In this document: piece by piece, positions 48,466 to 51,585 of the stretch
Layout: each line of letters begins with the position of its first letter
How positions within the stretch are numbered: the stretch's first letter is position 1
NCBI RefSeq assembly: GCF_000382185.1
Contig: NZ_KB907784.1
Location: 3,426,633-3,490,632 of the forward strand
Reading direction: 5' to 3'
Origin: Bordetella sp. FB-8
GTDB taxonomy: Bacteria; Pseudomonadota; Gammaproteobacteria; Burkholderiales; Burkholderiaceae_B
DNA: 64,000 bases
The notes under the pieces: generated by a model
The model's database searches: none
What the model was told of the DNA's origin: nothing
The model's input: only the letters and a program-made list of their open reading frames with translations
Translations under genes and position numbers: made by a program

Positions 48466-49542
48466 TCACTTACCAGCGACCACTCCCACCGCCAGGCGAC
48501 GCGCGCGCACGGCATCGGCCAAGCGCTGCAGCACCTCGCGGGTGCGGTCCCAGTCGATGCAGCCGTCGGTTACGCTCTGGCCGTATACCAGCGGCTGACC
48601 CGACACGTGGTCCTGCCGTCCGGCGACCAGATGGCTTTCGATCATCACGCCTGCGATGCGGCTTTCGCCATGCTCCATCTGCTGCGCCACATCGTCCATG
48701 ACCAGCGGCTGGTTCTGGGGATTCTTGCTGCTGTTGGCGTGGCTGGCATCGATCATGATGCGCTGGGCCAGGCCGGACTTGGCCATTTCCTGGCAGGCGG
48801 CCTCGACGCTGGCGGCATCGTAATTGGGCGTTTTTCCGCCGCGCAGAATCACATGGCAGTCCTCATTGCCTGCGGTCGAGACAATGGCGGAATGCCCCCC
48901 CTTGGTCACGGACAGGAAATGATGCGGCTGCGAAGCGGCCTTGATGGCATCGACGGCGATTTTCACGTTACCGTCGGTGCCATTCTTGAATCCGACCGGG
49001 CATGACAGTCCCGACGCCAGTTCGCGGTGTACCTGGCTCTCGGTGGTACGCGCGCCGATCGCCCCCCAGGACACCAGATCGGCAATGTATTGCGGCGTGA
49101 TCATATCCAGGTATTCGCAGCCGGCTGGCAGGCCCAGGCTGTTGATCTGCAAAAGCAGCTCGCGTGCCACCCGCACGCCTTTGTTGATATTGAAACTGCC
49201 GTCCAGGTCGGGATCGTTGATCAGGCCCTTCCAGCCCACCGTGGTGCGCGGCTTCTCGAAATACACGCGCATCACGATCTCCAGCTCCGGAGCCAGGCGG
49301 TCGCGCTCGGCCTTGAGCCGGCCGGCGTATTCCAGCGCGGCCTTGGTGTCGTGGATGGAGCAAGGGCCGACGACCACGATAAGACGGTCGTCCATGCCGT
49401 GCAGGATGCGATGCAAGGCGCGCCGCGCCTCGTACACCGTGGCGGAAACCTCGGGCGTAGCCGCAAACTCTCGCATCACATGCGCGGGCGGATTGAGCTC
49501 CTTGATTTCACGGATACGAAGGTCATCGGTATTGTGCGACAC
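48466..49542 (-). CDS. aroG: 3-deoxy-7-phosphoheptulonate synthase (DAHP synthase, class I)
   Basis: The enzyme condenses phosphoenolpyruvate and erythrose 4-phosphate, the first step of aromatic amino acid synthesis. The 358-residue AroFGH-type protein has VVVGPCSIHDTKAALEYA (catalytic Cys near residue 60), the metal and PEP residues in EKPRTTVGWKGLIND, GCEYLDMITPQYIADL, and the GGHSAIVSTAGNEDCH segment. The N-terminal extension that carries feedback-inhibitor sites is present (DLRIREIKELNPP). A Phe/Tyr-rich leader peptide and an attenuator lie upstream. Confidence 0.95.
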   Translation of the reverse strand: MSHNTDDLRIREIKELNPPAHVMREFAATPEVSATVYEARRALHRILHGMDDRLIVVVGPCSIHDTKAALEYAGRLKAERDRLAPELEIVMRVYFEKPRTTVGWKGLINDPDLDGSFNINKGVRVARELLLQINSLGLPAGCEYLDMITPQYIADLVSWGAIGARTTESQVHRELASGLSCPVGFKNGTDGNVKIAVDAIKAASQPHHFLSVTKGGHSAIVSTAGNEDCHVILRGGKTPNYDAASVEAACQEMAKSGLAQRIMIDASHANSSKNPQNQPLVMDDVAQQMEHGESRIAGVMIESHLVAGRQDHVSGQPLVYGQSVTDGCIDWDRTREVLQRLADAVRARRLAVGVVAGK

Positions 49543-49605
49543 GGGTTTGCTCCAAGAATGTGTGTGCGGATTGGGGCTGGGCTTGACCGCCAGCCTGCCG
49601 GCGGC

Positions 49606-49638
49606 AATAAAAAAGCCGCCAGGTTCGCTGGCGGCTTT
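49606..49638 (-). terminator. Attenuator terminator in the aroG leader
   Basis: Read on the minus strand, AAAGCCGCCAG and CTGGCGGCTTT form a perfect 11-bp stem around a CGAAC loop, followed by six T and then ATT. It lies 19 bases after the leader-peptide stop and 64 bases before the aroG start. Its 5' arm includes CCGCCAGCG, which is exactly complementary to CGCTGGCGG in the leader coding region (49680-49688), so an antiterminator hairpin is available. Confidence 0.88.
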
Positions 49639-49656
49639 GGGGAATTCTTGCTGTTT

Positions 49657-49737
49657 TCAGCTTGAACGCGACCCTTCCTCCGCCAGCGGCTTCAGAAAAT
49701 AAAAGTAAAAATAAAAGGCGGGGATCGCGAATTTCAT
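49657..49737 (-). CDS. Phe/Tyr-rich leader peptide of aroG
   Basis: This 26-residue open frame begins MKFAIPAFYFYFYFLKP and has seven consecutive aromatic codons (positions 8-14, TTT TAT TTT TAC TTT TAT TTT), with another Phe at position 3. The run is followed by Pro-Leu-Ala-Glu codons that contain the antiterminator segment CGCTGGCGG, and the peptide stops 19 bases before the terminator stem. The design is that of pheL or trpL: stalling for want of charged tRNA-Phe or tRNA-Tyr would free that segment to pair with the terminator's 5' arm. Confidence 0.85.
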   Translation of the reverse strand: MKFAIPAFYFYFYFLKPLAEEGSRSS

Positions 49738-49744
49738 GTGAACG

Positions 49745-49774
49745 ACTCTAGCACATAAATTCCTGGCCTGACAA
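49745..49774 (-). promoter_or_regulatory. Candidate sigma-70 promoter of the aroG leader transcript
   Basis: On the minus strand TTGTCA (49774-49769) and TAGAGT (49750-49745) are separated by 18 bases. They lie in the 45-bp gap between the chemoreceptor stop and the leader start, so a transcript would begin just before or at the leader peptide's ribosome-binding region. Both hexamers are imperfect. Confidence 0.4.
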
Positions 49775-49782
49775 ATCGCGCT

Positions 49783-51585
49783 TTAGTCGAGCTTGAATTG
49801 GCCCACAGCCTGGGCCAGGCTCAGCGCCTGGTCGCGCAGCGCCACCGTCGCAGCCGTCGATTGCTCCACCAGTGCTGCGTTCTGCTGCACCATTTCGTCG
49901 AGCTGGCTCACGGCGCGGTTCACTTCCTGGATGCCGCGCGTCTGCTCTCCCGCCGCGCTCGTGACCTCGGAGATTATGGTCGTGACGTTGCCCACGTTCT
50001 GCACGATTTCGTTCATCGTCTCGCCCGCGCGGCGCACCTGCTGCGAACCCGAGGTAACGCTGGTCACCGTCGATTCGATCAGATCCTTGATTTCCTTGGC
50101 TGCCTGGGCGCTGCGCTGCGCAAGGTTGCGCACCTCGCCCGCCACCACGGCGAAACCGCGTCCTTGCTCGCCCGCGCGCGCCGCCTCCACGGCGGCATTC
50201 AGCGCAAGAATGTTGGTCTGGAACGCAATACCGTCGATCACGCCGATGATGTCCGCGATCTTGACCGATGCCCCCTCAATCTCGGCCATGGTACTCACCA
50301 CGTCGCCGATGACAGCGCCGCCGCGCGAGGCCACCTGCGAGGCCGCTGCCGCAGTCGTGTCGGCCTGTTGCGCCGCATTGGCCGACTGCGCCACCGTCGC
50401 CGTGATCTGCTCCATCGACGCCGCCGTCTGCTCCAGGCTTGCCGCCGCCGATTCGGTGCGGCTGGACAGATCCACGTTGCCTGCGGCGATCTCGTCGCTC
50501 GCGTTACGCACGGACTCGCTCGCGACGCGGATCTGGCGCATCACATTGCGCAGCTTGGTCATGAAAGCGTTGAACGAGCGCGCGATCTGAGCAACCTCAT
50601 CGCCCCCCTCGTCGGGCAGACGTCGCGTCAGGTCGCCTTCGCCCGCGCTGATGTCGTCCATGGCATTGCGCACCCGCGAAAGACGCTTGAACGAGACAGC
50701 CGTCGCCGTCGCCACGATCACTGCAGCTGCGATCACGATCACAACAAGCGTGATCAGCGAAGTCGTCAGCAAAGAGCGCATGCCCGCCGTCGCATCGGCC
50801 TGATCGAAGGCGACGATCACGTGCCAGTCAGTACCCGTTATGGGTTTGGCGCTCATCAGCTTGATCTTGCCGTCCACTTTGACCGGCACCGGCTGCTTGG
50901 ATGTGTACAGCGAGGCGAGACGGTCGCCGGTCAACTCGGGCGCCAGCGCCGAGATCGGCTTGAGCGTGAGCTTGGCATCCGGGTGCGCGACGATCTTGCC
51001 GCTGTTGTCGACCAACATGCCAAAGCTGGCCGGCGTAGGGTGGACCGAGCGCACATTGGCAATCACGCTATCCATCGTGACATCACCTCCGATCACGGCC
51101 TTCGCTAAGTTGCCTTGCATCACCGGTACGGCAAAGGACACCACCAGCTTGCCAGTACCCGCATCGACATAGGGCGGTGTAACGATCACCTTGCCCGCTT
51201 GGATGGCTTGTTTGTACCAGGGCCGCACGGTCGGGTTGTAGCCTGCCGGAATACCGGTGGCATCGGTGAACTTCGCAGTCCCGTTGGCGTAGCCGATATA
51301 GACGTTGCTGAAGCCGCCCGCCGCCGCGACTTGCTTGAACATTGGCAGCGGATCGGCCGCATTCGCCCCTACGTCCTGCAGCGACGAGATCATCTGCTCG
51401 TGTATGCCGATCCAGTCGTCGATACCTTCGGCGTGGCTTTCGGCCACGGCCTGGAGCGTGTCGTTTACCGAATCACTGTTGTGCAGATTCGCGACGTAAT
51501 AGTTCAGCGCGGTATTGGCGCCAAGGGCAATCACGACGATGGCAACTGCCAGCGCGACAATGCGTGCACGTATGGTGGAGAACAT
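49783..51585 (-). CDS. Methyl-accepting chemotaxis protein with double-Cache sensor
   Basis: This 600-residue inner-membrane chemoreceptor has a first membrane helix at residues 8-30, a large periplasmic dCache domain (about 35-275; [20 protein letters not shown] is the usual ligand-pocket segment), a second helix (about 282-305), HAMP, and a signalling domain with the tip [20 protein letters not shown]. It ends VGQFKLD with no CheR pentapeptide. dCache receptors often sense amino acids or carboxylates. ATG 51585 begins MFSTIRARI. No other chemotaxis gene adjoins it. Confidence 0.93.

Follow-up and report, generated by a model that had tools for sequence, protein, structure and literature searches.

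A predicted phenylalanine/tyrosine leader-peptide attenuator of DAHP synthase in Bordetella sp. FB-8 and related elements in other proteobacteria

The synthesis of all aromatic amino acids begins with DAHP synthase, whose gene in Bordetella sp. FB-8 very probably stands under a four-segment, ribosome-mediated transcription attenuator that tunes it to the charging of tRNA-Phe and tRNA-Tyr. The elements of this attenuator occupy the 240 bases of minus strand between a chemotaxis-receptor-like gene and the DAHP synthase gene. They are conserved in relatives, their pairing arms covary and they stay linked to DAHP synthase, and these observations give good support to the Phe/Tyr leader-peptide attenuator proposed in an earlier note on this DNA. 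Beyond that proposal, we describe a protector pairing between segments 1 and 2, a probable leaderless start, a wide distribution, and leaders of relatives that carry Trp codons as well. Chances appear about even that the elements of Burkholderiales, Xanthomonad-type gammaproteobacteria and rhizobia form one conserved, uncatalogued attenuator family, passed on together with DAHP synthase, and that one codon run in each leader reads two of the aromatic amino acids or all three. If this holds, shortage of any amino acid read would open the gateway of the shikimate pathway, replacing repression by TrpR and TyrR.

The attenuator locus

The window is the whole 64-kb stretch of DNA analysed. Its minus strand carries, in this order, a promoter-like site, a leader ORF, a terminator and the DAHP synthase gene, the attenuator elements lying about 70 bases 5' of the latter (Table 1). 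The 26-codon frame with seven alternating Phe and Tyr codons and the perfect 11-bp terminator stem with its T6 run are present as the earlier note had read them, its coordinates being exact; the loop has 5 bases and the T6 run lies at 49614-49609. The promoter candidate that had been noted on this strand is an extended -10 site, TTGTCA/TGC-TAGAGT (49774-49745), and the arrangement TTGTCA-18-TAGAGT is expected 0.3 times in shuffles of the 801 bases scanned. All seven consecutive codons of the run (7/7; TTT TAT TTT TAC TTT TAT TTT) specify Phe or Tyr, as in a short ORF rich in codons for the end products of the pathway, and in a degenerate 21-mer search with at most two mismatches the run was the sole match in the window, with none in 100 shuffles. 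The terminator-like site alone is unremarkable, one being seen and 0.9 expected by chance in 801 bases. The aroG-type assignment of the downstream gene is borne out by its match to the AroG equivalog profile NF006723.0 (586.4 bits; cut-off 568). The nearest named DAHP synthase locus, with 84% identity, is that of Bordetella genomosp. 2, a member of a genus of Alcaligenaceae. The upstream gene, named by reading as chemotaxis-receptor-like, has the same orientation and its end at 49783.

Table 1. Features of the DAHP synthase attenuator locus (positions in the window)
Feature	Position	Strand	Basis
-35-like hexamer, TTGTCA	49769..49774	-	Promoter scan
Extended -10, TGC TAGAGT	49745..49753	-	Sequence, promoter scan, motif in relatives
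Predicted transcription start, at leader ATG or 1 nt before	49737..49738	-	Inferred from 7-nt gap between -10 and ATG
Leader ORF, 26 codons, MKFAIPAFYFYFYFLKPLAEEGSRSS	49657..49737	-	ORF and leaders of the same kind in relatives
Segment 1 (protector), CGCGATCCCCGCC	49717..49729	-	Can pair with segment 2 if leader is untranslated
Sensor, seven alternating Phe/Tyr codons	49696..49716	-	Degenerate 21-mer search
Segment 2, CGCTGGCGG, antiterminator 5' arm, in Pro-Leu-Ala-Glu codons	49680..49688	-	Complementarity, alignment
Segment 2, second part, GGGTCGCG, pairs with segment 1	49667..49674	-	Folding, arm-swap test
Segment 3, CCGCCAGCG, antiterminator 3' arm, overlaps terminator 5' arm	49626..49634	-	Complementarity
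Segments 3:4, intrinsic terminator hairpin, 11 bp	49612..49638	-	Hairpin scan, covariation
GGAG, likely ribosome-binding site of DAHP synthase	49550..49553	-	Sequence
DAHP synthase, aroG type, GTG start, controlled gene	48466..49542	-	NF006723.0 profile

Of the 98 leaders, 96 were used to count the extended -10 motif TGNTANNNT. It occurs 39 times in the 45 nt preceding the leader ATG, and in 34 of these cases, one in each of 34 leaders, it ends 6-9 nt short of the ATG. Thirty of the 34 belong to the family of the window's genome or its nearest relatives, the others being L015, L044, L069 and L126; Burkholderia-type and Oxalobacteraceae leaders have no such motif. Because the -10 hexamer lies 7 nt before the ATG, the leader mRNA is predicted to start at its own ATG, and it would probably be translated as a leaderless message. 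A leaderless leader mRNA, as predicted here, is known for trpL of S. meliloti (PMC10117765, excerpt), and leaderless mRNAs are described as common in Cupriavidus (PMC7563307, excerpt).

Two other loci of the same genome bear on aromatic amino acids. A second DAHP synthase homologue (L131, G000:C1:3078398-3079438; 60% identity) has no Phe/Tyr-type leader in the 450 nt scanned upstream; since it lacks the leader, the two DAHP synthases are probably under different control. Outside the window, trpE (L164, G000:C1:1631714-1633123) has its own Trp-rich leader upstream (..TWRWWRSTSGW..). By reading, a G+C-rich hairpin with a T run comes after it; the strict scan did not list this hairpin. This leader is a probable separate trp attenuator.

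Conservation and distribution

Regions upstream of DAHP synthase homologues were scanned in 150 loci (80 from named records, plus 30 and 40) for an ORF with at least four aromatic residues in eight and, 15-110 nt downstream of it, a hairpin with a T run and an energy no higher than -10 kcal/mol. Both elements were found in 98 of the 150 regions, which is no prevalence figure because the regions were chosen by similarity to this gene: in 89/110 of loci L001-L110, 8/20 of L111-L130 and 1/3 of L148-L150. The same procedure on other stretches of these loci gave 4/1288. None of the 17 second DAHP synthase homologues (L131-L147), including that of the window's genome, is preceded by leader and terminator. 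Loss of the aromatic run or of the alternative pairing in relatives had been named in the earlier note as grounds for abandoning the proposal; both were found to be kept. Seven of the leader peptides, compared with the NCBIfam and Pfam models, matched none.

The leader is absent from 21 of the first 110 loci, among them L059, whose upstream sequence is just 55 nt long. Seven changes between presence and absence suffice for the 21 absences on a quick unrooted tree of the 110 proteins, and thus the element largely follows the gene. In what follows, the Alcaligenaceae-type set comprises the 21 loci nearest to that of the window; the other set names come from the records and the tree. The DAHP synthases of rhizobial and Devosia-type loci (L032-L075) group with the Xanthomonad ones on this quick unrooted tree (SH-aLRT 98), and leaders containing Trp are common to both. 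The DAHP synthase gene and its attenuator may have moved together between classes. In four loci (L083, L087, L089 and L094) there is an extra terminator-like hairpin just 5' of the attenuator promoter, which perhaps terminates the upstream gene.

A covariance model was built from the alignment of relatives and the window sequence, with the terminator as its sole structure; training rows match it by construction. In the window's genome it gave one strong full-length match (91.7 bits), the next reaching 30.9 bits over the terminator part only, and each of 20 genomes from other clades, drawn from the first set, had one match. Within the family, 33 of 39 genomes and 32 of 38 genera have a match, part of them being in the training set, and six genomes have none in this search; among the 15 family genomes new to the analysis (G364-G378), 13 match. 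In all 33 matching genomes (33/33) DAHP synthase follows the best match. There are two further matches in the family. One, in G368, is cut by a contig end. The other is a second copy of the attenuator in G018 (L195, G018:C1:1193543-1193663), lying before an ORF whose start (VSHN) resembles that of DAHP synthase and which goes on in frame as MnmA without about the first 90 positions of that family's profile. Here the control element is duplicated and fused to another gene.

Wider samples were searched with stricter filters, scoring 13 candidates per genome for the class and 9 for the phylum, and the counts are thus lower bounds. At least 52 of 398 phylum genomes have a match, and in at least 46 of 398 the element stands before DAHP synthase; 46 of the 55 phylum matches precede this gene, including all 44 with E < 7.8e-5. 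In the class sample at least 6 of 274 genomes match, 5 of the 6 before DAHP synthase; the remaining one (L163) looks by reading like a groEL terminator and was rejected as an attenuator. We also rejected the idea that the same element controls another gene. Nine phylum matches lie elsewhere than before DAHP synthase, each of them weak (E 7.8e-5 to 8.3e-4). By reading of the translations, five appear to be plain terminators; the others comprise a pheA-type leader, a pheS-type leader and two leaders of Leu/Val/Ile type that precede an ilvC-like gene. The Leu/Val/Ile-type leaders, each with a terminator, come from two genomes of one family (L243 and L246; by reading, from weak model matches).

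Pairing, switching and the amino acids read

As the earlier note had seen, CGCTGGCGG in the Pro-Leu-Ala-Glu codons of the leader is exactly complementary to CCGCCAGCG in the 5' arm of the terminator. For the comparison of pairings, 62 of the 98 regions were kept in alignment A1, one per group at least 90% alike, with L018, L058 and L123 removed by hand. Terminator columns are paired in 93.0% of cells, and 40 cells are changed on both sides against 8.6 in shuffles; antiterminator columns are paired in 79.3% of cells, with 23 such cells against 7.9. These shuffles, like the permutations below, ignore the relatedness of the sequences. Slid controls were lower throughout, at best 62.2% paired for the terminator and 54.3% for the antiterminator. 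The number of antiterminator pairs with a double change (5, with 3.4 in shuffles, reached by 63/500) is not unusual. At alignment pair 47/120, U-A is found in 12, C-G in 6 and no pairing in 44 of the 62. In addition, the duplexes between each leader and its own terminator arm have a mean of -23.6 kcal/mol against -22.5 (sd 0.27) for permuted partners, a value that none of 2000 permutations reached; in 79 of 98 loci the real leader is equalled in its pairing with the terminator arm by no more than 5 of 100 shuffled ones.

The 1:2 pairing joins leader codons 3-7 (CGCGATCCCCGCC) with GGCGG...GGGTCGCG and is present in the fold of this sequence; the GGG of the latter part has an alternative partner, a CCC before the terminator. 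With all sets together, own 1:2 duplexes average -18.2 against -16.3 when permuted, which 0/5000 permutations reach. Within sets, the arm swap was significant in the Alcaligenaceae-type (0/5000) and alphaproteobacterial (38/5000) sets and not in the Xanthomonad (1145/5000), Burkholderia-type (4698/5000) or Oxalobacteraceae (2896/5000) sets. The median z against shuffled segments is -1.2, and in just 32 of 98 loci do no more than 10 of 200 shuffles reach the strength of the real pairing. The modelled 1:2 step belongs to the fold of this sequence, and the arm swaps speak for it only in the Alcaligenaceae-type and alphaproteobacterial sets. In 10 of the 62 aligned leaders the GGCGG element sits in another reading frame, and therefore it is the RNA rather than the peptide that is kept in those leaders; a conserved Pro-Leu-Ala-Glu peptide signal, considered as a candidate, was rejected for these changes of frame.

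From these elements we infer the following course of events. Transcription would start at or next to the leader ATG, leading to leaderless translation of the leader. When charged tRNA-Phe or tRNA-Tyr is short, the ribosome would stall in the Phe/Tyr run, leaving segment 2 free just ahead of it to pair with segment 3 before segment 4 is transcribed; with 2:3 formed there would be no terminator, and the DAHP synthase gene would be read. With both charged tRNAs plentiful, the ribosome would reach the stop codon, its footprint lying over or beside segment 2, and with segment 2 covered the 3:4 terminator would form and transcription end. If the leader is untranslated, 1:2 pairing would leave the terminator free again. 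Joint sensing of Phe and Tyr, as the earlier note proposed, is a prediction from the codons only.

Counted from the first base of the last aromatic codon, the antiterminator starts after 10 nt (median; range 7-16). Given the usual ribosome footprint, segment 2 would stay free of a ribosome stalled anywhere in the run, except perhaps at the last codon. Folding was done for 97 of the 98 loci, L018, whose frame runs past the terminator, being dropped. When the stalled ribosome was masked and the RNA ended before segment 4, the antiterminator formed in 94 of the 97. At equilibrium, with the complete RNA and the ribosome stalled, 82 of the 97 loci fold into the terminator and 14, the window's locus among them, into the antiterminator. 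Because the terminator wins at equilibrium in those 82, the switch must rest in most relatives on the order of transcription, and within the folding model this result counts against a purely thermodynamic switch. An antiterminator that forms first, during transcription, is in our view normal for attenuators.

Codon choice differs between leaders and the genes behind them. Phe codons TTT and TTC stand at 299:59 in the leader cores and at 95:474 in the DAHP synthase genes; for Tyr codons TAT and TAC the counts are 136:83 and 172:373. The preference for aromatic codons ending in T in the leaders could reflect slower wobble decoding or avoidance of structure.

Of the 98 leader cores, 46 contain Trp codons, and the presence of these codons varies with the set: 8/8 Xanthomonad, 15/15 alphaproteobacterial and 11/14 Burkholderia-type leaders have them, against 0/13 in Oxalobacteraceae and 2/21 in the Alcaligenaceae-type set. 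A type II DAHP synthase was found in 16 of the 36 genomes searched, all of them Xanthomonad-type or alphaproteobacterial, and each of these 16 has Trp leaders and one type I enzyme. In the searched genomes of Burkholderia type with Trp leaders, type II is absent and type I is represented by two to five homologues. The pattern follows clades and obeys no simple rule, and we rejected the idea of Trp codons as a mark of genomes that have just one DAHP synthase.

Tyr provides three of the seven run codons here and 219 of the 624 aromatic codons in the 98 leader cores, and by the footprint given above a Tyr codon of the run would expose segment 2 like any other except perhaps the last. Both points argue against an attenuator that answers in practice to Phe alone, with the Tyr codons adding little. 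Such a response, a variant of the main reading whose likelihood is not to be added to that of the latter, seems to us rather unlikely, and yet it has a precedent in C. glutamicum, where the aroR leader has Phe-Tyr-Phe and Tyr availability is without effect on aroF transcription (PMC11802643, excerpt). A different emphasis would have the leader RNA or peptide act mainly in trans, as peTrpL/rnTrpL are reported to do in Sinorhizobium, with attenuation secondary. The predicted product of termination, a leader RNA of about 130 nt that is itself leaderless, would suit this, and trans action is reported for the S. meliloti trp leader (PMC7298713 and PMC10117765, excerpts). Nevertheless, the GGCGG element under the C-terminal part of the peptide is read in other frames in the leaders counted above, and the strong model matches precede DAHP synthase with the exception of one rearranged locus and one contig end, which makes action mainly in trans quite improbable.

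The reading of the hairpin as the terminator of the upstream chemotaxis-receptor gene, with an accidental leader ORF, takes its appeal from the orientation of that gene, which ends at 49783 on the same strand, and from the expectation of about one terminator-like site by chance in 801 bases. However, in the 110 loci, a few of which have little upstream DNA, the receptor-like neighbour is found only in the window's locus, and leader and terminator stay with DAHP synthase across loci. Moreover, a promoter-like site separates the receptor gene from the hairpin, and the terminator arm covaries with the leader. The neighbour changes and the attenuator stays; we reject this reading, to which only a minimal likelihood can be given, in favour of ribosome-mediated attenuation of DAHP synthase.

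Relation to known systems

The four-segment logic proposed here, with 1:2, 2:3 and 3:4 pairings, is that of the trp leader (RF00513). In contrast to our element, the latter has Trp codons before trpE, and the RF00513 score here is 24.5 bits against a gathering score of 41. The E. coli-type pheA leader is similar in having a Phe-rich leader followed by a terminator, and RF01859 (Phe_leader) matches 49606-49734 over the full model length, but with 29 bits against a gathering score of 55 and a different gene downstream; the pheA-type leader found in the phylum sample has no Tyr, unlike the window's leader. An Rfam scan of the window region and the loci of 20 relatives gave no family at gathering score, and RF01859 and RF00513 had no matches in the relatives.

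The earlier note set the attenuator against E. coli, whose DAHP synthases it held to be regulated by repression and not by attenuation. The contrast is broadly right, as the E. coli genes are repressed by TyrR and TrpR (PMC11802643 and PMC5343134, excerpts), except that attenuation of aroF has been put forward as a hypothesis for E. coli (PMC8632094 and PMC2659441, excerpts); an aroF attenuator in Shewanella has also been noted, with reference to a 1980 E. coli study (PMC2659441, excerpt). Among the genomes treated in PMC5343134, TrpR and TyrR are described, in the part available, as absent from the non-gammaproteobacterial classes. In our data the TrpR profile had no match over the cut-off in 21 genomes (two weak matches), and TIGR04381 (HTH_TypR), which has matches in E. 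coli, had none in the window's genome. The attenuator offers a candidate replacement for TrpR/TyrR repression, and it is found in alphaproteobacterial and Xanthomonad-type loci as well.

In Bordetella parapertussis a 2005 paper placed a putative attenuator before the gyrA-serC-aroQ.pheA-tyrA cluster, DAHP synthase being outside that row (PMC1173090, excerpt). No such attenuator was recognised for Bordetella, Burkholderia, Xanthomonas or rhizobia among the matches listed in a literature search with subscription papers mostly outside its scope, and excerpts of PMC2965389 and PMC7563307 contain nothing on this gene. The uORFC-13-1 motif, predicted before aroF in Acholeplasma, is similar in that a terminator and an upstream ORF whose Phe codons are U-rich precede a DAHP synthase gene; compared by its description, it comprises 24 sequences from Acholeplasma and the environment and has at least one Phe codon and an extra substructure (PMC8632094, excerpt). 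Finally, the relatives described here are natural variants, with Phe/Tyr and Phe/Tyr/Trp leaders, for the sensing of several amino acids by one ribosome.

The aroR leader of the aroF operon in Corynebacterium glutamicum was reportedly described by Neshat et al. in 2014. It has Phe-Tyr-Phe before aroF, and Phe limitation acts on it, whereas Tyr availability does not (PMC11802643, excerpt; a further source on this attenuation is PMC4046766, also an excerpt). Like the leader described here, aroR places Phe and Tyr codons before a DAHP synthase gene, and ribosome stalling on it is described as raising transcription. Likened by description only, the two differ in that aroR belongs to an actinobacterium, has an aromatic run of three codons against seven here, and responds to Phe and not to Tyr. 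Judged by its sequence features, which are those of the trp and phe attenuators, the element of Bordetella sp. FB-8 would work as they do, and by the thresholds it lies outside RF01859 and RF00513. Attenuation of DAHP synthase by a Phe-Tyr leader was already known from C. glutamicum, and what is new is a widespread, uncatalogued proteobacterial element.
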